Shown here one piece after another: positions 19,746 through 52,268 of a stretch of DNA of 64,000 bases. The position numbers and the translations under genes were made by a program. Origin of the DNA: Acidobacteriota bacterium (lineage in GTDB: Bacteria > Acidobacteriota > Vicinamibacteria > Marinacidobacterales > Marinacidobacteraceae); NCBI GenBank assembly GCA_022820545.1, contig JAJEFG010000046.1:56973-120972 (forward strand), in the 5' to 3' direction. The notes beneath the pieces were generated by a model. That model worked only from the letters and a program-made list of their open reading frames with translations, searched no databases and was not told the origin of the DNA. How positions within the stretch are numbered: position 1 is the stretch's first letter; each line of letters opens with the position of its first letter.

Positions 19746-20093
19746 TCAGAAACCCTTCGCTTTCAGCATTCGACCAACTCGCCGGTTGCGCGCGTAGTAC
19801 TCCGCCTCCTTCCCCACCGGAACGAGCGGGTCCCACAACGCCTCAAGCCCGGTCACCTCACCGTTCTCATGTAACCGCAGGTGTCGGTCGTTCGTCATTC
19901 GATGCCTCGCGTAGAAGTCGAGGTACTCACCCTTGTCATCGGAACCGAGGAGCCAGCGAACCGACCATCCAGCCTGCAAGAGCTCGCCTCGCTTCCGTTC
20001 AGCAACGGCTCTCTCGGGTAGCTCGATGCCCCAGTGCGCGAAGTACCGCGCGAACCGCGACCTGATGATGCTCAGCTCGTCTGCGCTGTCCAC
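19746..20093 (-). CDS. Small conserved protein of unknown function, last gene of the ring-cleavage operon
   Basis: 115 aa. The track ORF starts at 20303 inside the LigB gene. I choose the GTG at 20093 because GGAGG stands 5 nt upstream; this overlaps the LigB gene by 22 nt. The sequence is charged and aromatic: FAHWGIELPERAVAERKRG, GWSVRWLLGSDDKGEYLDFYARHRMTNDRHLRLHENGE, then KEAEYYARNRR. There is no signal or membrane segment. GEYLDFYARHRMTNDRH looks like the conserved core of a small widespread family, but I do not know a function. Confidence 0.65.
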   Translation of the reverse strand: MDSADELSIIRSRFARYFAHWGIELPERAVAERKRGELLQAGWSVRWLLGSDDKGEYLDFYARHRMTNDRHLRLHENGEVTGLEALWDPLVPVGKEAEYYARNRRVGRMLKAKGF

Positions 20094-20953
20094 CCAGCCT
20101 CCGGATGGTCGAACCAGATGTGGACCTGGCCGGTGCCGACGGCGTTCTCGTACTCGGAATACAGCCGGCCCGGCGCGGTGCAGTCCGCGCCGCCGGCGGC
20201 GGCGACCGCCATCAGGTAGTGGCCGAAGCGGCCCTCGGGAGCGAAGCGGGCGTAGTCGTCCATGGTCTCGATGACGCGGCGGTGATCGCCCGCCTGCAGC
20301 CATGCCAGGCGCTCCTCGTCGGCGGCGCGGGCTTCGGGAGTGCGCACATGCACCGGATCGGACGCCTCGTGGAGCGGGAGTTCCGGCAGTGGCCAGAACC
20401 GGTGGCTCATCCCCCCGGAGGCGAGCAGAACCGTCCGCCGGCCGGTCTCTTCCACGGCCTCCCCGATCGCCCGGCCCATCGTCAGGAAGTCCGGCGTGGT
20501 CCCCGTCTGGCAGCAGCTCACCGAGACCACCCGTTCGCCGCGCCAGAGGTAGTGGAGCAGGTTGATCGTCGGGTAGTGGACCGGGAGGTAGGGGTCGTCC
20601 GAAGCGTGCGCGGGCTGTCCGAGCCGGTGCGCCGCGGCCTCGGCGGCGTGGGCGAGTTCGGGATCGCCGGGATAGTCGTAGGGAACGCCGTGCATCCCCC
20701 GCGGCAGCTCGTCCGAGGTGTAGCGTCCGGAGCGGCGCGCCTGCGCCGCCAGCAGGTGCTCCACCGTGCTCGCCCAGTGGGTGTCGAAGACCACGAAGGT
20801 CTCGGGCTCGAGTTCGTCGAATACCTCGTTCCGGAGCCGGCGGAGACCGGGAACCAGGCTGATCTCCTTGCCCTCGTTCAACTCCCGCCGGGTCTCCTCG
20901 GGCAGCATGATCGTCGGGACATGGGAAAGGAGGCCGAAGCCGACAACCGCCAT
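20072..20953 (-). CDS. Class III extradiol ring-cleavage dioxygenase, LigB/HpaD type
   Basis: 293 aa. LigB-superfamily features: early His in LLSHVPTIMLP, FDTHW, HYPTINLLHYLW and GGMSHRFWPLPE with the second catalytic His region, then SEYENAVGTGQVHIWFD at the end. These non-heme Fe(II) enzymes open catechols next to the diol, for example homoprotocatechuate in the HpaD group. The gene follows the acetoacetate-decarboxylase-like gene by 3 nt and overlaps the small unknown gene. The operon suggests cleavage of a hydroxylated aromatic made by the upstream P450; the exact substrate is inference. Confidence 0.82.
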   Translation of the reverse strand: MAVVGFGLLSHVPTIMLPEETRRELNEGKEISLVPGLRRLRNEVFDELEPETFVVFDTHWASTVEHLLAAQARRSGRYTSDELPRGMHGVPYDYPGDPELAHAAEAAAHRLGQPAHASDDPYLPVHYPTINLLHYLWRGERVVSVSCCQTGTTPDFLTMGRAIGEAVEETGRRTVLLASGGMSHRFWPLPELPLHEASDPVHVRTPEARAADEERLAWLQAGDHRRVIETMDDYARFAPEGRFGHYLMAVAAAGGADCTAPGRLYSEYENAVGTGQVHIWFDHPEAGWTAQTS

Positions 20954-20956
20954 GAG

Positions 20957-21757
20957 TCAGTCCTCACTTCGGGAGAGCGTTTCTCCCCCGCGGAAGGTAA
21001 GGCCGACCCGCCGCCAGCAGCCACCGAGCATCTCGCGGGGCGCGAGCGACAGGAGTTCCTCGGTGGGCGAAGGGAAGACGCGGAGCGAGGCGTCGCCGAC
21101 GTAGGCGGTCCCCAGTTCCACTTCCGAACTCACCTTGACGATCTCGTGGAGGGCGTCGCCCCCGTCCGCCTCCACGGCCGGCAGGAGCCGGTGGTGGAGC
21201 ATGGGATGGGCGTTCACGAAGCCCGCGCTCTCCGCTTCCCCGGTGATGGTGAACTCCGCCTCCATGAGCCGGCGGGAACCCGCCGCCACGGTCGCTCCGA
21301 AGCGGCCGCCGGGGGCCAGCCGCGGTCCCGCCTGCCCGATCAGAGCCGGCCGGGTCATCCAGATCTCGCCGAGCTTCTTGGGATAGCCCTGGATGTGGCC
21401 GCGCAGCAGCGAGGCGTCCTGGTCCACCCAGATGAAGACGCAGCGCGACCAGTCCCGGTCCCGGTAGCGGCAACGGACGACCAGCAGGCACTCCTTGTAC
21501 TGGGAGCGCACCGGGTCGAGCTCCTCGTTCCCTGATTCGCTCTTCCACTGCCACTCGGCCCAGACGGCGGCCACTGCGTCCGGGCGGTCGGCCACCGGCT
21601 CGAGCGGCGGCGGAAGCAGCGCCGCCACCGCGCCCGGCTCGGCGAGGTACTCGATGGTCAGCATCTCCCCCGAGTAGTGCCACGGCGGCGGCGGGAGCAG
21701 GGACGCCTGACCGGACGGGGTGCGGGGGAAGAGGAATCCGGCGGTCACGGCGCTCAA
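20957..21757 (-). CDS. Acetoacetate decarboxylase family enzyme
   Basis: 266 aa with the family's GYPKKLGEIWMTR motif; a Lys in this motif forms the Schiff base in acetoacetate decarboxylase. The EYLAEPGAVAALLPPPLEP start and the central VFIWVDQDASLLRGHIQ segment also fit. The start is uncertain: TTG at 21757 gives a TTGA overlap with the P450 stop, and GTG at 21748 is the alternative. Paralogs of this family act on beta-keto acids or catalyse aldol-type reactions in catabolic clusters. A role on the ring-opened product is plausible. Confidence 0.8.
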   Translation of the reverse strand: MSAVTAGFLFPRTPSGQASLLPPPPWHYSGEMLTIEYLAEPGAVAALLPPPLEPVADRPDAVAAVWAEWQWKSESGNEELDPVRSQYKECLLVVRCRYRDRDWSRCVFIWVDQDASLLRGHIQGYPKKLGEIWMTRPALIGQAGPRLAPGGRFGATVAAGSRRLMEAEFTITGEAESAGFVNAHPMLHHRLLPAVEADGGDALHEIVKVSSEVELGTAYVGDASLRVFPSPTEELLSLAPREMLGGCWRRVGLTFRGGETLSRSED

Positions 21758-22923
21758 GTGTCCCAGACCACCCTAACGCTCTTCGGACCCCGGAACTCGA
21801 AGCCGCGGAGCGTCACTTCCCCGTCCGGGTGCAGCCGCAGGCCCGGAAGATTCCGGAAGAGCCGTTCGGCGCTGATCCGGATCTCCTGCCGCCCGAGCCA
21901 CTCCCCGATACAGCGGTGGACCCCGAGCGCGAACGCGGCATTCCCGCCCTCGGTGCGGGTGGGGTCGAGGCGTTCCGGGTCGCGGAAGCGCGCCGGGTCG
22001 AGGTTCGCCGCCCGGAGGATGCCGGAGACAAGGACGCCCTCCGGGAGGCGCACCCCGGCGAGTTCCGTCTCCCGGGTGGTGGTGCGGGTGATGGTGCCGA
22101 CGGGCGTGTAGCGGCGGAGCACCTCGTCCACCAGCCGCCGCATCGCGGCGGGGCTGCCGAGCGCCTGTTCCCGGAGCCCCTCGTCGGAGAGCATCGTCCA
22201 GACCACCAGGCCGATGCCGTCGCGCGGCTCGTTGATGCCTCCGGAGATCATCAGCCGGACGTTGTTCACGATCTCCGCCGCGGTGAGGTCCTGCTCCGCC
22301 TGGAGGATGTGGAGAAGCCCGCACGCTTCGGGACGCTCCCGCAACTCGTCGAGCCGGGCCAGCACCGCCGCTTCGACGGCATCGGCAGCGCGCCGGCCGA
22401 CCGCAAACGCTTCCGGTTCCTGCTCGAAATTGGCGACCCCGATACAGAGCCCCTCGCACCAGTCCCAGACCTCGCGGAAGTCGTAGGCGTCGAGTCCGAG
22501 CACGGTGGCGAGCGAACCTGCGCTCACGAGCGCCGCGTAGCCGGCGATGATGTCCGCCTCCCCGTCGTCCCGCATGGACTCGATGAGGCAGTCGCACATC
22601 GCGGGGAGTTCCGTCTCCGCGAAGGAGCCGCTCCGGCCGGCCCGCAGGAAGGGCGGCTTGCAGGCCTTCTGGAGCCGCGTGCACGCGGGGGGATCCAGCG
22701 TCAGCATGTTCTCGCCGAGCGTCCGCGCCAGGAAACTGGGCTCGGTGCAAGCGCTGAAGATCTCGGGGTGGTCCTCCATGGTCTGGACGTCGTCCCAGCG
22801 GGTCACGAACCACATCTCGAGCGCCGGGATCCAGGCCACCGGTTCCTCCTCGCGCAGGCGGGCGAGGATGGGGTCCGGATCCCGGTCGAGATCCTCGGCG
22901 GTGACGGTGGCGGCGAAGCTCAC
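21754..22923 (-). CDS. Cytochrome P450 monooxygenase (bacterial class I type)
   Basis: 389 aa from GTG 22923, soluble. The heme-thiolate loop is FALGVHRCIGEWLGR (F-x2-G-x3-C-x-G). The I-helix region ISGGINEPRDGIGLVVWTML has the central acid, but the canonical AG-x-D/E-T is replaced by GGINEPRD, so the proton-relay Thr seems absent. The K-helix E-x2-R lies in EVLRRYTP. No ferredoxin or reductase lies beside it. It sits between the GS-like gene (25 bp) and the decarboxylase-like gene (overlap), so it is part of the same pathway, probably hydroxylating or O/N-dealkylating an aromatic. Confidence 0.88.
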   Translation of the reverse strand: MSFAATVTAEDLDRDPDPILARLREEEPVAWIPALEMWFVTRWDDVQTMEDHPEIFSACTEPSFLARTLGENMLTLDPPACTRLQKACKPPFLRAGRSGSFAETELPAMCDCLIESMRDDGEADIIAGYAALVSAGSLATVLGLDAYDFREVWDWCEGLCIGVANFEQEPEAFAVGRRAADAVEAAVLARLDELRERPEACGLLHILQAEQDLTAAEIVNNVRLMISGGINEPRDGIGLVVWTMLSDEGLREQALGSPAAMRRLVDEVLRRYTPVGTITRTTTRETELAGVRLPEGVLVSGILRAANLDPARFRDPERLDPTRTEGGNAAFALGVHRCIGEWLGRQEIRISAERLFRNLPGLRLHPDGEVTLRGFEFRGPKSVRVVWDT

Positions 22924-22948
22924 GGGCAGGCTGCCGTCCGGAAGCGAA

Positions 22949-24229
22949 TCAGAGATAGGGGAGGTATTCGCGCTTCTCCCAGTCGGTGGTGTGGGCGCGG
23001 AAACGCTCCCACTCCCGGCGCTTCACGGTGACGTGCATCCGGACGAACTCCTCCCCGAAGGCGTTCACGAGGTCCTGATCGGCCTCCAGATCGTCGAGAG
23101 CCCGCCCCAGGTCGTCGGCCACCGTGACCGGGCACTCCGACGCCTCCAGACAGTCGCCCTTCTCCTCGGGGGGCGGCGCCATCCCAGCCTGGATTCCGAG
23201 CCGGGCAGCGAGCAGCGTGGCCGCCACCCCGAGGTGCGGGCCGCAGGACCCGTCGGCGAGCCGATGCTCGATCCGCGACCCCGCCCCGCGTTCCAGCGGT
23301 ATGCGCACCGCGCAGCCGCGGTGGTCGTGGCCCCAGTTGGCCCAGTAGCCGCTCATCTGACCCGGCCGGAGCCGCCGGTACGCGTTCACCGTGGGCGCCA
23401 CGGCCCCGGCGAGTCCCCGGTGGTGGTGAAGCATCCCGGCCACCGCGGACCAGGCGAGGCGCGAGAGCCCGCCCTCGCCTTCGGGATCGCCGAAGACGTT
23501 CTTCCCGTCCTCTTCGAGGCTGAGGTTGACGTGCAGGCCGGAGCCGCCCCGGTCGCTGAAGGGCTTACCGATGAAGGTGAGGTGATAGCCGCGCTCGGCG
23601 GCCACCTCGCGGGCGAGGAGCTTGAACAGGAACGCCTCGTCGGCGGCGGCGAGGGCGTCGTTCTTCCCGAGGGTCAGCTCGAACTGCCCGTCGTCGTACT
23701 CGCTGTGGAACGACTCCAGAACGATGCCGCAGCGGTCGGCGGCATCGAGCACCGCCTCCATGACCCCGCCGGGGTCCATCAGCGGCCCGGAACCGTAGAC
23801 GTGCGAACCCGGGGTGTGGACCGGCCGGAAGCCGCCCTCGCCGTCCGGCTGCAGCAGGAACGCCTCCAGCTCGATGCCGACCACCGGACTCCGGCCGTCG
23901 GCCTCATGCTCCGCGATCGCGCGCTTCAGGATGCGGCGGGAGGAGCGTTCGAGCGGCTTGCCGTGCTGTTCCAGGTCGGCGACCACGACGCCGGTCCCAT
24001 CGCTCCAGCCCGGCCGGATCGCGGCCGGGTCGAAGACCGCGCGCATGTCGGGCAACCCGTCGAGGAGGCCCGAGTTGGGATAGGCGTCCATCTCCCGGTC
24101 GAAGCCGAGCGCGAAGGTGGCGAGGCAGTGCCCGGTTTCGGCGGCGCCCGGGAGAAGGAGCTTGCCGCGGGCGAGTCCGAGGTGGTCGGGCCAGAGCGCC
24201 CGGATGCGGCGGTAGGCGTGGTCGGTCAC
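22949..24229 (-). CDS. Glutamine-synthetase-like gamma-glutamyl ligase (PuuA type)
   Basis: 426 aa from GTG 24229, shorter than housekeeping GlnA and without its N-terminal pattern. GS catalytic-domain motifs are present: VGIELEAFLL, ESFHSEYDDGQFELTL, the FIGKPFSDRGGSGLHVNLSL loop with GSGLH and the RIEHRLADGSCGPHL metal/ATP segment. This group gamma-glutamylates amines such as putrescine (PuuA) or aromatic amines (the aniline pathway enzyme). Within this operon a role activating an amine substrate fits better than nitrogen assimilation. Confidence 0.82.
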   Translation of the reverse strand: MTDHAYRRIRALWPDHLGLARGKLLLPGAAETGHCLATFALGFDREMDAYPNSGLLDGLPDMRAVFDPAAIRPGWSDGTGVVVADLEQHGKPLERSSRRILKRAIAEHEADGRSPVVGIELEAFLLQPDGEGGFRPVHTPGSHVYGSGPLMDPGGVMEAVLDAADRCGIVLESFHSEYDDGQFELTLGKNDALAAADEAFLFKLLAREVAAERGYHLTFIGKPFSDRGGSGLHVNLSLEEDGKNVFGDPEGEGGLSRLAWSAVAGMLHHHRGLAGAVAPTVNAYRRLRPGQMSGYWANWGHDHRGCAVRIPLERGAGSRIEHRLADGSCGPHLGVAATLLAARLGIQAGMAPPPEEKGDCLEASECPVTVADDLGRALDDLEADQDLVNAFGEEFVRMHVTVKRREWERFRAHTTDWEKREYLPYL

Positions 24230-24245
24230 GGCGCGGGGGGTTGTA

Positions 24246-24818
24246 TCACTTGCCGCGCGGACGCAGCACGAGCGCCGCGATCGTTCCGCTCGCCAGGAAG
24301 AAGTAGATGGGATAGATCGCGATGGCGAACTCCCAGCGGTCCACCGCCACCAGATTGAAGGTGTTCCCGGCGATGAAGAGCGCCCAGGCGAGGCGGTCCT
24401 CGGTGTGCGGCGCGATCCAGGCCTTCCTGATGGTCGGGACCGCGCCCGCGAAGTCGACGCCGAGCGTCGTCACCAGCGCCACCACCGGATTGTCGAACAG
24501 CCACCAGAGCAGGAGGCCGGCGCCGGCGCCCATGAGGCAGGCCCGGTCGAGGGGAGTCGAGCCGCCCTCGCCGTAGCGGATGCTCAGCAGCGCCGTCACC
24601 AGCGAGGCGACGAAGTAGCTCACCGCGACCCAGATGGTGGTCTCGGCGCCGGAGAAGTGGTAGCTGGCCAGGAGGACCCCGCCGGTCGTGGTCCAGATCC
24701 ACCAGGTGGCCCGGTTCGGGCGGGTCTCGCCGCGCAGGATCGCCACGATGTAGGGGACGAACGCCACCAGCGACAGCACGCCGGCGACCCACCCGGCGAC
24801 AACGGTGAACGGCGGCAT
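24246..24818 (-). CDS. PQ-loop/SWEET-like small membrane protein
   Basis: 190 aa from ATG 24818; the track adds 43 residues of upstream sequence. About six to seven short helices are visible, for example VAGWVAGVLSLVAFVPYIVAIL, TTIWVAVSYFVASLVTALLSI and LMGAGAGLLLWWLFDNPVVALV. FVPYIVAILRGETRPNRATWWIWT, repeated in weaker form as VDFAGAVPTIRKAW, resembles PQ-loop transporters. It is first in the six-gene operon, 16 bp before the GS-like gene, so it may carry the pathway's substrate. No specificity can be read. Confidence 0.6.
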   Translation of the reverse strand: MPPFTVVAGWVAGVLSLVAFVPYIVAILRGETRPNRATWWIWTTTGGVLLASYHFSGAETTIWVAVSYFVASLVTALLSIRYGEGGSTPLDRACLMGAGAGLLLWWLFDNPVVALVTTLGVDFAGAVPTIRKAWIAPHTEDRLAWALFIAGNTFNLVAVDRWEFAIAIYPIYFFLASGTIAALVLRPRGK

Positions 24819-37318: not shown

Positions 37319-39019
37319 TCAGTAGCCGACGACGACGCCGAGACGCCGTGGGTCCGTGGCCCCGTGGAGCTTGCCGTCGTCACCGCGCCAGATGATCTGC
37401 ATCGAGCCGGTGTGCCAGTTGTAGGCGCCGAGGTCGGTGATCCCGATCCCGCTCTTCTTCAGGCCCGCGCGGACCGCGTCGGAGATGCGGGACTCGATCT
37501 GAACGCCGCGTTCGCCCCCCCGGAAGGCCCAGAAGCGCGGCGCGTCGGCCGCGTCCTTCGGGTGCATGCCGTAGTCGATGATGTTCACGAGCACCTCGGT
37601 GACCGGCTGCGGCGGCGAACCCGGGGTCCCCATGGCGAGCCAGGGCTTGCCGTCCTTCGCCACGATGATCCCGGTGATCGGCAGCACCAGGCGGCGGCCG
37701 GGACCCGCGGTGGCGGCGCGCGCGGTGCTCCCCGTCGCCCGCACCCCGTCGATGAAGATGCCCGGCGCCCCGCCGTGCCCCGTGTGGAGCATGGACACCC
37801 AGTTGCCGTGCGAGTCCACGATGACGTTGTGGTTGCTCCCGAGATCCGCGGTGTCCGCCCCGCCGGCGCCCGGCGGGAAGAGCGAGGCCGTCATGTCGGG
37901 GGTCTCGCTGTTCGAGAGGTCCACGCCGTCGAGCAGCATCGTGTTCTCGACGAAGGTGGCCCCCAGTTTTCCGTACTCGTCGGAGAGCCAGAGATCCGTG
38001 GGCATCTTGAAGTTGAGCGGGTCCTTGATGACCCAGCGCGTCTCGTCGGAGACCCGGCCGAAGGCCCGGATCATGATCTCGAGCGCCTCGGGGGACTCGC
38101 TGTAGTGCCCCATGCCCTTCAGGTCGAAGTTCTCGAGGATCTTGAGGTTGCTCCCCACGATGACCCCACCCGTGTCGGGCGGCGGCGAACCGTAGAAATC
38201 AAGCCCGCGGTACGTGAACTTCGTCGGGTCGTCCCAGTGCGGCTTGTACTCCGCCATGTCCTGCATGCTGACCGCGAAGCCCTTCGCGTTCGCGGCCTTC
38301 ACGAACTTCTCGGCCCAGGCCCCGGTGTACATGTAGTCGGCGCCCTCGGAAGCGACCATCTTGAGGTGCTCGGCGAGCGCCGGCCGCTTCCAGCGCTCGC
38401 CCACCGGCACCAGGTGGCCGTTCGCCATGTAGGCCTCGCGCGCCTCGGGGTTCTTGACGAGGTCCCCCTGCTCCATCAGGTTGTAGTTGATGCCGTACAT
38501 GAACGAGGTGACGATGGCGCCTTCCGTGGCCGAGGCGATGGCCGGCTGCAGGTACTGCGACCACTCCATCGTCCCGCTGCCGTAGCGCTCCGCGATCGCT
38601 TCGAGGCCGCGCACCACGCCGCCGATGGCGACCTTGGAGACGTCGCCGTGGTCGTGGCGGTCGGCGCGCGGGCGCTCCGAGACCGCGTTCAGCGACCAGT
38701 AGGTGTCTGTGGCCGCGTCGTAGCCGATGACGGACATCGAGCCGAAGTGCGAGACCTGGTGGAAGTCCTGGACGTGCTGGACGAAGACGGCGGTCACCAT
38801 GGCGTCCACCGCGTTGCCGCCGTCCCTCAAGACCTCGAGCGCCGCGTTGCTGACCACCGGAAGCTGGGTGGCCACCATGACCGAGTCGCCGGTGACGGTC
38901 GGCTTCGGTCCCTGGTTCAGTTGCGGATCGGGTCCGTTCTGCGCCATCCCGGTGGTTGCGAGAGCCAGCGCCCCCGCGACGACCAGGAATCGAATGAATG
39001 TAGAGCTTGTTCTCATCAT
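37319..39019 (-). CDS. Gamma-glutamyltransferase family protein, paralog 2
   Basis: 566 aa from the ATG at 39019 behind GGGGAGGAG. Signal peptide FLVVAGALALATTGMAQ. Same plan as paralog 1: NGGNAVDAMVTAVFVQHVQDFH, PPPDTGGVIVGSNLKILENFDL, nucleophile region GSNHNVIVDSHGNW with Ser in place of Thr, and GTPGSPPQPVTEVL. The gap to paralog 3 is 18 bp. The three copies are diverged but colinear over their whole length, so they come from tandem duplication and are all under selection. Confidence 0.85.
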   Translation of the reverse strand: MMRTSSTFIRFLVVAGALALATTGMAQNGPDPQLNQGPKPTVTGDSVMVATQLPVVSNAALEVLRDGGNAVDAMVTAVFVQHVQDFHQVSHFGSMSVIGYDAATDTYWSLNAVSERPRADRHDHGDVSKVAIGGVVRGLEAIAERYGSGTMEWSQYLQPAIASATEGAIVTSFMYGINYNLMEQGDLVKNPEAREAYMANGHLVPVGERWKRPALAEHLKMVASEGADYMYTGAWAEKFVKAANAKGFAVSMQDMAEYKPHWDDPTKFTYRGLDFYGSPPPDTGGVIVGSNLKILENFDLKGMGHYSESPEALEIMIRAFGRVSDETRWVIKDPLNFKMPTDLWLSDEYGKLGATFVENTMLLDGVDLSNSETPDMTASLFPPGAGGADTADLGSNHNVIVDSHGNWVSMLHTGHGGAPGIFIDGVRATGSTARAATAGPGRRLVLPITGIIVAKDGKPWLAMGTPGSPPQPVTEVLVNIIDYGMHPKDAADAPRFWAFRGGERGVQIESRISDAVRAGLKKSGIGITDLGAYNWHTGSMQIIWRGDDGKLHGATDPRRLGVVVGY

Positions 39020-49330: not shown

Positions 49331-50599
49331 TTACCGGGGGACGAGCCGCACCGGCAGGTGCTTGACCCCATGGATGAAGTTGGAACGGAGACGGTCGGGC
49401 GGGCCGGTGAGTTCGACGGCGCGCACCCGGCGGAAGAGTTCCTCGAAGGTGACCCGGACCTCGAGGCGGGCCAGCCAGGCCCCGAGGCAGACGTGCCGGC
49501 CGGCGCCGAAGGCCAGGTGCGGGTTGGGGCTCCGGCGAATCTCGAACCGCTCGGGCTCCGGGAAGGCCTCCGGATCGCGGTTCGCGGCGATGTACCAGAG
49601 GACCGCCTTGTCGCCCCGGCGCAGCGGGGCGCCGTCGAGGTCGAGGTCCCGCGTGAGGGTGCGCCGGAAGTGCATGGTCACCGAGGTCCAGCGGAGGATC
49701 TCCTCGGTGGCCGACTCGAAGAGGCCGCGCTCGCCGGGAGCGGCGTCGAGGGCTTCCCAGGCGTCGGGGTGATCGAGCAGCCCGAGCAGGCCGAGCGAGA
49801 TCGTGTGCCGGGTGGTCTCGTTGCCGGCGACGATGAGGAGCAGGAAGAAGTTCTGGAACTCCAGCTCGGTGAGCGGACGGCCGCCGGCGTCCTCGGCCAG
49901 CATCCCGGAGATGATGTCGTCGGTGGGCCGCCGGAGACGCTCCTTCCGGATGCGGCTCGCGTAGTCGAAGACGGCGCGCGCCGCCGGGCTCCGGAAGGGC
50001 AGCAGGCGGAACTCTTCGGTGTCCACCTGGTCGATGACCGCCATCGAGAACTCGGGGTCCGCGTTCGAGATCAGCGCGTCGCCCCATTCGACCAGTTCGC
50101 CGGCATCCTCCTCCGGCACGCCCAGGATGCGGCAGAGCATCCGGATGGGGAGTTCCCGGGAGACTTCCTCCACGAAGTCCAGCTCGCCGCGTTCGAGGGC
50201 GCGGTCGAGCACCTGGGCGGCCAGCCCCCGCACCGAGGCCTCGTAAGTGGCGATGGATTTCCGGGAGAAGCCCGCTCCGACCAGCCGGCGTAGCCGGGCG
50301 TGCTCGGCGCCGTCGTACTCCATCATCGTCCGCCGGGCCTCGAGTTCGTCTTCATCGAGTTCTTCGAGGCGGATGCCGCGGGCGCAGGAGAAATCCCTCG
50401 GGGTGGAACTCGCGTGGAAGACGTGGGAGTGACGGGTGAGCGCCCAGAACCCGGCGCCGTCGGTCTCGTTCACCCAGCAGGGGGATTCCTGCTCGCGCAT
50501 CCGGGCGAAGAGGTCCCACGGCACCCCCTTCGTGTAGGTGTCGTGCGAAACGATCGCCTCGAAACCGCCTGGGGACCCGTTTCGGCCGTTCCTCGTCAC
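49331..50599 (-). CDS. Cytochrome P450 monooxygenase
   Basis: 422 aa from the GTG at 50599. The track start at 50659 uses sequence from repeat I and is rejected; a GTG start is assumed without a strong ribosome site. Heme loop HLAFGAGRHVCLGAWLAR (F-G-x3-H-x-C-x-G). The I-helix FFLLLIVAGNETTRHTISLG has the full A-G-x-E-T motif, and the K-helix E-x2-R is in EEILRWTSVT. This is a classical soluble bacterial P450, unlike the first one, whose I-helix is altered. It needs a ferredoxin and reductase from elsewhere. Substrate unknown. Confidence 0.85.
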   Translation of the reverse strand: MTRNGRNGSPGGFEAIVSHDTYTKGVPWDLFARMREQESPCWVNETDGAGFWALTRHSHVFHASSTPRDFSCARGIRLEELDEDELEARRTMMEYDGAEHARLRRLVGAGFSRKSIATYEASVRGLAAQVLDRALERGELDFVEEVSRELPIRMLCRILGVPEEDAGELVEWGDALISNADPEFSMAVIDQVDTEEFRLLPFRSPAARAVFDYASRIRKERLRRPTDDIISGMLAEDAGGRPLTELEFQNFFLLLIVAGNETTRHTISLGLLGLLDHPDAWEALDAAPGERGLFESATEEILRWTSVTMHFRRTLTRDLDLDGAPLRRGDKAVLWYIAANRDPEAFPEPERFEIRRSPNPHLAFGAGRHVCLGAWLARLEVRVTFEELFRRVRAVELTGPPDRLRSNFIHGVKHLPVRLVPR

Positions 50600-50630
50600 C
50601 GCCCGGATGGTACGTCGAGGTGGCGCGACG

Positions 50631-50679
50631 GCTTGGAACGCCGCTCTCCAGACCGGCACGCGCGGCGCTCCGCGCCGCG
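50631..50679 (-). repeat. Two-hairpin interspersed repeat, type 2, copy I
   Basis: On the minus strand: left hairpin GCGGCGC-GGA-GCGCCGC, core GCCGGTC-TGGA-GAGCGGC (one mismatch) and tail GTTCCAAGC. It lies between the divergent P450 and FAH-family starts. Confidence 0.8.
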
Positions 50680-50769: not shown

Positions 50770-51501
50770 ATGAACCCGAGCAAGATCGTTTGTGTTCATC
50801 TCAACTATCGCAGCCGGGTCGAGGAGTTCGGAGCACGGCTTCCGAAGGCGCCCACTTACTTCCTGAAGCCGCCCTCCGCCCTGATCCGGAGCGGTGAGCC
50901 GGTGGTCCGCCCGCGGGGCTGCCGCTACCTGAACTTCGAGGGGGAAATCGTTGCGGTGATCGGATCGCGCTGCCGGGGAATCGAGCCGGAAGACGCCGGG
51001 CGCTTCGTTGCCGGCTACACGGTCGGCAACGACTTCGGGCTGCACGATTTCCGGGACACCGACGCCGGCTCGATGCTCCGCGTGAAGGGCGCCGACACGC
51101 TCTGCCCGGTGCTGGAACCGGTGGTTCCCGGGTGGGATTTCCACGGGCGCGGGATCCGCACGCTGGTCAACGGCGAGGTGCGCCAGTCGGGCAACACCGC
51201 CGAGATGGCGTGGGACCCGCACTACCTGATCGCCGACATCGCGCGGACCCACACGCTGCTGCCGGGCGACCTGGTCTTCACCGGCACCCCGGCCGGCTCG
51301 CGGCCGGTGGAGCCGGGGGACGAGGTCGCGGTCGAAGTGGACGGTTTGGGGCGCCTCGAAAACCCGATCGTGGCCGCGGAGTGGGGGATTCCCGAGGGCT
51401 ACGGGGCGCAGCCGACCGAGTCCGAGGAAGTGCGGTCCACGGCGCTCGGCGGCGACTGGGAGTTCCGGGGGATTCGTCCGCCGCGGGCGACGGCGCGATG
51501 A
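50770..51501 (+). CDS. Fumarylacetoacetate hydrolase family protein
   Basis: 243 aa from the ATG at 50770 (track start lies in repeat I). FAH fold: LNYRSRVEEFG, KPPSALIRSGEPVVRP, the metal-site segments YLNFEGEIVAVIG and YTVGNDFGLHDF, KGADTLCPVLEPVV, and LLPGDLVFTGTPAGSRPVEPGDEV. Members hydrolyse or decarboxylate beta-diketo acids, including late steps of homoprotocatechuate and other meta-cleavage pathways. It is coupled by ATGA to a PuuD-like gene. It could handle products of the LigB-type dioxygenase encoded 30 kb away, but that is inference. Confidence 0.82.
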   Translation: MNPSKIVCVHLNYRSRVEEFGARLPKAPTYFLKPPSALIRSGEPVVRPRGCRYLNFEGEIVAVIGSRCRGIEPEDAGRFVAGYTVGNDFGLHDFRDTDAGSMLRVKGADTLCPVLEPVVPGWDFHGRGIRTLVNGEVRQSGNTAEMAWDPHYLIADIARTHTLLPGDLVFTGTPAGSRPVEPGDEVAVEVDGLGRLENPIVAAEWGIPEGYGAQPTESEEVRSTALGGDWEFRGIRPPRATAR

Positions 51502-52268
51502 GCGGGAACAGACGCCGCAGCCGGCCCCGGATCGGGCTCACCCCCTGGAAGCGCCCGGTCCACACGATCGTGGGAGATCCGGAACAGCTCTTCACGCTCG
51601 CCGAGGAGTACGTGGAGAGCGTGCGCATCGCCGGGGGCATCCCGATCATCCTTCCGCCGGCGCCGCTGAGCGCGGCCCCGGAGGCGGTGGCGGCGATCGA
51701 CGCCCTGGTCCTGACCGGCGGAGGCGACTTCTCGCCCTCCTCCTACACGAGGACCGACGAGGGGCTGAGCGCGGACATCGATCCCCAGGAGGACGCCTGG
51801 GACGTCGCGCTGACGCTGGCGGCCCGCGACGCGAACCTTCCTTTCTTCGGCATCTGCCGGGGCATGCAGGCGCTCAACATCGCACTCGGGGGCACGTTGC
51901 ACCAGGACATCAGCGACCGCGCGAACCACCCGCCCATCCCCGGCGTGCCGGCGGACGCGGTGGCGTTCCGGCACCCGGTGACGATCCAGCCGGAGAGCCG
52001 CCTCGGCCAGATCCTCGGGGTCACCGAGCGAAGCGTGAACAGCATCCACCACCAGGCGGTGGACCGGCTGGGCGAAGGACTGGCGGCGGTGGCGCACGCG
52101 CCGGACGGCACGATCGAAGGCATCGAATACAACGGGTCCTCGCCCCGGGGCCGCTGGGGAGCGCTCGCCGTGCAGTGGCACCCCGAGCGCATGGGGCACG
52201 ACCTGGACCAGCGCATCTTCGACGCCCTGGTCCGGGCGGCGGCCCGGCGAAGCCTGGACGGAGACTGA
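51498..52268 (+). CDS. Gamma-glutamyl-amide hydrolase, PuuD-like class I amidotransferase (C26)
   Basis: 256 aa from the ATG at 51498 (ATGA overlap). Class I glutamine amidotransferase triad: Cys in FFGICRGMQALN, His and Glu in VQWHPER. RIGLTPWKR at the start and LVLTGGGDFSPSSY are typical for PuuD and gamma-glutamyl-GABA hydrolases. It removes the glutamyl group from gamma-glutamylated amines or acids. It complements the PuuA-like ligase at 22949-24229, although the two are in different operons. Confidence 0.82.
   Translation: MSGNRRRSRPRIGLTPWKRPVHTIVGDPEQLFTLAEEYVESVRIAGGIPIILPPAPLSAAPEAVAAIDALVLTGGGDFSPSSYTRTDEGLSADIDPQEDAWDVALTLAARDANLPFFGICRGMQALNIALGGTLHQDISDRANHPPIPGVPADAVAFRHPVTIQPESRLGQILGVTERSVNSIHHQAVDRLGEGLAAVAHAPDGTIEGIEYNGSSPRGRWGALAVQWHPERMGHDLDQRIFDALVRAAARRSLDGD

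Follow-up and report, generated by a model that had tools for sequence, protein, structure and literature searches.

A candidate gamma-glutamyl pathway for arylethylamine catabolism in Acidobacteriota and other bacteria

We analysed a set of genes in a 64,000-nucleotide stretch of Acidobacteriota DNA (the window), consisting of an operon at 19746-24818 and a second group at 49.3-52.3 kb. The closest described systems each resemble part of this set. With the homoprotocatechuate pathway (HpaRGEDFHI) it shares a LigB-type 2,3-dioxygenase and an HpaG-like protein of the FAH family, and relatives of the set in other bacteria add an HpaE-like aldehyde dehydrogenase (ALDH) and an HpaR-like MarR regulator; it differs in lacking HpaF, HpaH, HpaI and HpaB and in having a protein of the acetoacetate decarboxylase (ADC) superfamily, a ligase resembling glutamine synthetase (GS), cytochromes P450 and a glutamyl hydrolase. 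The aniline and 1-naphthylamine systems (AtdA1-A5 and NpaA1-A5) likewise use a GS-like ligase to activate the amine, with a companion of the glutamine amidotransferase (GATase) type, before oxidation and ring cleavage, but the genes described here encode P450s rather than Rieske dioxygenases, a ligase of another GS clade, and LigB, FAH and ADC enzymes. The Puu pathway (PuuABCDE) follows the same gamma-glutamyl amide logic and has a similar hydrolase (PuuD), and relatives of the set include a PuuC-like dehydrogenase and a PuuE-like transaminase of gamma-aminobutyric acid (GABA); unlike the Puu pathway, the set has a ligase that scores under the PuuA cut-off and almost never a PuuB-like oxidase, and its substrate would be aromatic. 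The closest solved relatives of the ADC-fold protein are in the MppR/Sbi00515 branch of the superfamily, with which it shares the PK motif containing the Schiff-base lysine. MppR builds enduracididine, whereas the ADC-fold protein here would be catabolic and catalyse cleavage.

We judge it an even chance that the window genes are the form that a dispersed pathway of arylethylamine catabolism (acting on tyramine, dopamine, 3-methoxytyramine or similar) takes in Acidobacteriota. By their sequences, the genes and their relatives look like a pathway that is widespread in bacteria and so far undescribed. An earlier note on this DNA had proposed an oxidative aromatic-amine route begun by a GS-like gamma-glutamyl ligase, and this is borne out by the placement of the ligase outside GlnA and by the occurrence of the neighbourhood across phyla. 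The note overlooked the second P450 (P450-B), the FAH protein and the hydrolase in the same window, and with them the links to the homoprotocatechuate and Puu pathways. These links indicate an arylethylamine, so that of the two substrate classes it offered the aromatic amine stands and the amino-aromatic acid is disfavoured. It also knew of no described pathway with this exact set; our search of the open literature (tyramine or dopamine, gamma-glutamyl, extradiol, CYP1232A24) likewise found no description of the gene set as a pathway, although such a search does not prove absence.

Conservation of the gene set

The gene neighbourhood is conserved outside this strain, recurring in the genus, in the family and across phyla (Acidobacteriota, Actinomycetota and Pseudomonadota). 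An alignment scan with LigB of a collection of 84,980 species gave 303 confirmed relatives, of which 80 were kept; their annotated neighbourhoods, together with four plasmid loci, made up 81 loci. Matches to GS were present in 54 of these, to P450-B in 54, to FAH in 56 and to ADC in 52, with further matches to HpaE (63), Peptidase_C26 (C26; 22), PuuD (18) and PuuE (13); the P450 and ALDH counts include paralogues. The PuuE-type transaminases reached 54% identity to E. coli PuuE. For the 42 loci with enough flank we also counted by clade, which is conservative because calls of open reading frames (ORFs) sometimes overlapped: GS was found in 29, P450-B in 31, ADC in 27, the HpaE-like ALDH (ALDH1) in 35, FAH in 27, MarR in 23 and a ferredoxin reductase in 20. 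The ALDH1 proteins of the relatives form one clade, and permeases recur around the clusters along with the MarR regulators.

None of the 81 loci had HpaF, HpaH, HpaI, HpaB or a TynA-type amine oxidase, and one had a PuuB-like oxidase. Four canonical hpaD loci showed the reverse pattern, with HpaF in three, HpaH in three and HpaI in two, and with no GS, ADC, P450 or C26. A Rieske oxygenase was not among the recurring neighbours of the clusters, and genes for nonribosomal peptide synthetases (NRPS) or polyketide synthases (PKS) were not a recurring family around them.

Several clusters adjoin genes that would be expected after ring cleavage of a glutamylated amine. The second ALDH of the Streptomyces canus cluster has PuuC as its best match (568 bits, under the curated cut-off of 850, so not an equivalog) and its gene overlaps the C26 gene, as does that of its clade-mate in S. 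lunaelactis. The Sphaerimonospora cluster has an aminobutyraldehyde dehydrogenase that scores over its cut-off. In Novosphingobium, a succinate semialdehyde dehydrogenase (SSADH) over its cut-off adjoins a transaminase, the Croceibacterium counterpart of which scores over the GABA transaminase (GABA-T) cut-off. The S. lunaelactis cluster also contains a tyrosine-decarboxylase-like gene.

Enzymes of the operon and the second gene group

The GS-like protein is predicted to be an organic-amine ligase of the GoaS type. It scored far under the NCBIfam cut-offs for GlnA, PuuA (227 of 650 bits) and type III enzymes, and the cluster GS proteins grouped together (clade support 0.97), separate from PuuA, GlnT, an aniline-type GS and two GlnA proteins, that of E. 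coli and that of the genome itself. All 43 cluster GS proteins keep the metal, ATP and glutamate residues (E129, E131, E212, E220, H269, R321, R339, R344, E357 and R359). The ammonium-site Asp50 is gapped in all 43, and the flap Glu327 is replaced by Leu, Met or Ile in 42 (Met in the window). Both residues are kept in the genome's GlnA, which is 47% identical to that of E. coli. Loss of Asp50' and of a Glu-flap residue in organic-amine ligases has been reported in a study of a 1-naphthylamine ligase, which numbers the flap residue differently (PMC11335346). We rejected GlnA as an identity for the window protein on the basis of the tree and the loss of both ammonium-site hallmarks; the grouping with ordinary GlnA that the earlier note had named as counting against its proposal was not found.

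The ADC-fold protein is likelier to be a hydratase/retro-aldolase than a decarboxylase, because it is MppR-like. The MppR model gave 214 bits and the acetoacetate decarboxylase model 26 (NCBIfam), and the nearest structures were MppR (1e-55) and 4zbo/6eej (~5e-47); we take 4zbo to be Sbi00515, a pyruvate aldolase-dehydratase. The PKK motif with the Schiff-base lysine (K127/K128) is kept in more than 97% of 43 homologues. A decarboxylase, as the earlier note had read this gene, is unlikely, since the protein groups with MppR/Sbi00515 and not with true acetoacetate decarboxylases. Searches of the window's genome (G000) and of three relatives (G003, G007 and G009) for HpaH and HpaI gave noise-level matches only, which would make the ADC protein the obvious candidate for both steps. 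A similar catabolic role has been proposed for MppR-like proteins in archaeal (Saccharolobus) phenol degradation (PMC7820114).

The LigB protein is HpaD-like, and its nearest solved relative is 8iq8, a 2,3-dioxygenase of 3,4-dihydroxyphenylacetate (DHPA). It is ~30% identical to true HpaD and did not reach the HpaD_Fe cut-off (132 bits against 316). Residues H11, H59, E240 and H184 are conserved in 77 homologues. P450-A has the heme-Cys motif, belongs to a clade of 10 members, and is nearest among solved proteins to 6g71 (5e-57) and the O-demethylase GcoA (~1e-32). We take 6g71 to be CYP1232A24, linked to papaverine O-demethylation. This likeness to aromatic O-demethylases makes a methoxylated amine a possible substrate.

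The first five genes of the operon appear to share one transcript, judging from their spacing and conservation. The coordinates of all six minus-strand ORFs in the earlier note were reproduced, as was their spacing: 16 bp from the membrane protein gene to GS and 25 bp from GS to P450-A, a 4-nt overlap of P450-A with ADC, 3 bp to LigB and a 22-nt overlap of LigB with a small ORF (Table 1). The five genes were collinear in all six same-genus genomes in which the locus was read, far beyond chance, and the family's two other genera (G008 and G009) kept the order with extra genes inserted, including an AAA ATPase. The small ORF had no counterpart in nine other genomes of the family and no Pfam or NCBIfam match. 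We rejected it as an operon member because within its family it was seen in this genome only; thus the one-transcript claim of the note holds for five genes and its sixth member is unsupported. A terminator scan found none, and we did not use a single weak promoter-like match in the overlap of LigB and the small ORF. The membrane protein is 84-99% identical across the genus and family and had no Pfam or NCBIfam match. Its AlphaFold2 model was poor (predicted local distance difference test, pLDDT, 43), and it is possibly a transporter.

The AAA_21 ATPase genes lie inside the GS-P450-ADC-LigB array, at L025:5355-6668 (G009) and L026:2766-3932 (G008). The L026 protein partially matches the defence family MAD3.

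Table 1. Features of the proposed pathway in the window
Feature	Position	Strand	Remarks
Membrane protein	24246..24818	-	190 aa, multi-spanning; operon gene 1
GS-like gamma-glutamyl amide ligase (predicted GoaS-type)	22949..24229	-	PF00120 6e-83; proposed first step
P450-A	21754..22923	-	PF00067 8e-14; proposed ring oxidation or O-demethylation
ADC-superfamily protein, MppR-like	20957..21757	-	PF06314 4e-55; proposed hydratase/retro-aldolase
LigB-type extradiol ring-cleavage dioxygenase, HpaD-like	20072..20953	-	PF02900 4e-23
Small ORF	19746..20093	-	115 aa; overlaps LigB end; judged outside the system
P450-B	49331..50659	-	exact start uncertain; P450 type of most related clusters
FAH-family, HpaG-like isomerase/decarboxylase	50770..51501	+	HpaG C-terminal domain model 2e-46
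Peptidase_C26/PuuD-like gamma-glutamyl hydrolase	51498..52268	+	ATGA overlap (4 bases) with FAH stop

The second group of genes is ~30 kb from the operon on the same contig. We traced it through homologues in a genome of a sister family of the same order (G013), in which FAH is divergent to P450-B-ALDH1-GS-P450A-ADC-LigB on one contig. The window P450-B is 60% identical to the P450 that adjoins the GS operon there and falls in a clade of 48 cluster P450s, and the window FAH is 66% identical to that beside the G013 operon. The P450-B/FAH-C26 trio is kept across the genus and family, and in four members of the genus a distance of 28-44 kb separates LigB from FAH. The FAH protein scored under the curated cut-off for HpaG despite its match to the C-terminal domain model, and its metal-site residues E57, E59 and D88 are conserved. 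The C26 hydrolase matched the gamma-glutamyl-GABA hydrolase model (3e-24) and the PuuD structure 6vtv (1e-22) without reaching the PuuD equivalog cut-off (86 bits against 266); Cys120, His228 and Glu230 are conserved. Between the two halves, amid peptidase genes (M24, S9, S41 and DUF885), there is a gamma-glutamyltranspeptidase gene at 37319-39019.

Proposed pathway and alternative explanations

In the proposed pathway, the amine would carry a glutamyl cap until after the ring is opened. The GS-like enzyme would attach glutamate to the amine, and P450-B and P450-A would hydroxylate or O-demethylate the ring to give a catechol. LigB would then open the ring at the 2,3 position, as HpaD does, with the amine still glutamylated. 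When free 3,4-dihydroxyphenylalanine (DOPA) undergoes extradiol cleavage, the resulting aldehyde closes a ring with its own amine, the chemistry of betalamic acid, and the cap would stop the open-chain aldehyde from cyclising in this way. An aldehyde dehydrogenase would oxidise the semialdehyde, the FAH protein would isomerise and decarboxylate the product, and the MppR-like protein would hydrate 7-(gamma-glutamylamino)-2-oxohept-3-enoate and cleave it by a retro-aldol reaction to pyruvate and gamma-glutamyl-4-aminobutanal. The latter also arises as an intermediate when putrescine is broken down by the Puu pathway; a PuuC-type dehydrogenase would convert it to gamma-glutamyl-GABA, the C26 hydrolase would release glutamate and GABA, and GABA would enter metabolism through a transaminase and SSADH. 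That cleavage of gamma-glutamyl-dopamine would yield pyruvate and gamma-glutamyl-4-aminobutanal is chemistry that we derived on paper.

We hold this general catecholamine-type route, in which glutamate is kept through extradiol cleavage, the ADC-fold enzyme replaces the hydratase and aldolase, and the products feed GABA, only tentatively, at slightly under even probability. A conjugated substrate is favoured because the expected next genes (those for the PuuC-like dehydrogenase, C26, aminobutyraldehyde dehydrogenase, GABA-T and SSADH) adjoin clusters. Several observations weigh against the proposed pathway. A C26 or other GATase-type gene was near only 23 of the 42 well-flanked clusters, and in the aniline system a GAT-like protein instead hydrolyses excess conjugate (PMC11335346). 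It is chiefly in sphingomonads that GABA-T and SSADH recur, and these enzymes could handle GABA from other sources. P450-B resembles the lipid and steroid hydroxylases CYP125/124, which does not suggest ring hydroxylation. We found no ferredoxin system in the window, no cluster-type ALDH1 in the window's family (the best matches in its own genome were 34-36% identical) and no GABA-T over the cut-off in its genus, so that downstream steps there would rest on generic enzymes. For every member of the group we infer the substrate, and with it the order of steps, the retention of the glutamyl group and the direction of the ADC reaction.

The strongest rival, which we consider unlikely, has the glutamyl group removed ahead of ring cleavage. 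A P450 would oxidise the N-CH2 carbon of the glutamyl amide to give glutamine and an arylacetaldehyde, and the free DHPA formed from it would be broken down to pyruvate and succinate semialdehyde by a homoprotocatechuate route in which ADC takes over from HpaH and HpaI. This would fit the closeness of LigB, ALDH1, FAH and MarR to HpaD, HpaE, HpaG and HpaR, the DHPA dioxygenase as nearest solved relative of LigB, and the SSADH present in a cluster, but it gives no account of the C26/PuuD-like hydrolase, of GABA-T or of the PuuC-like and aminobutyraldehyde dehydrogenases. The distance of LigB from true HpaD, noted above, also argues against it, as do two Actinomycetota genomes in which the cluster coexists with a distinct HpaH/HpaI locus that has ALDH and FAH genes of its own. 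A pathway of the same type could instead act on another class of substrate, either an aromatic amine or alkaloid bearing methoxy or N-methyl groups or an aniline-like amine, with P450-A as the O-demethylase. The nearest relatives of P450-A point this way, as do PurU in five actinobacterial clusters, the FolD-PurU-aminomethyltransferase genes that flank the S. canus cluster, and sulfatase and transport genes that vary from cluster to cluster; however, P450-A is in only ~10 clusters, the GABA-type lower genes indicate an ethylamine side chain, and aniline routes use the Rieske oxygenases that do not recur here, and we regard this possibility, too, as improbable.

A biosynthetic role in place of a catabolic one is very improbable for these genes. 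Relatives of LigB and MppR do occur in natural-product clusters, MppR itself being an enduracididine enzyme, and one copy lies within the border annotated for a peptide biosynthetic gene cluster (BGC) of S. lunaelactis (PMC9866976). Against this, HpaE- and HpaG-like enzymes, MarR regulators, permeases and GABA catabolic genes recur in three phyla without recurring NRPS or PKS genes.

If the proposed pathway is correct, genes of freshwater actinobacteria, sphingomonads and Acidobacteriota whose present annotations are glutamine synthetase, acetoacetate decarboxylase, catechol 1,2-dioxygenase or unknown would gain a defined function open to testing. The pathway would also be a route for tyramine- or dopamine-type amines that uses no amine oxidase and protects the amine with a glutamyl cap at ring opening, and it would assign the MppR-like branch of the ADC fold a part in catabolism.

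Observations at individual loci

The S. lunaelactis copy (L152) is on plasmid pSLUN1, where the annotation of the lunaemycin BGC includes it in the border region. The lunaemycin study listed its permease, GS and ADC genes as having an unknown role at the edge of that BGC (PMC9866976), and the copy probably does not belong to lunaemycin biosynthesis. The cluster in its freshwater-actinobacterial form is also present on two contigs (L083 and L098) titled as Bifidobacterium breve metagenome-assembled genomes, and these titles look mislabelled. In three gammaproteobacterial loci (L051, L056 and L061) a sulfatase and a TctABC transporter adjoin the cluster, a hint of sulfated substrates. In Sphingobium TomTYG72 (L174), genes for a PuuB-like oxidase (36%), an aminotransferase and SSADH lie near a canonical hpa locus, possibly an oxidase-first amine route.

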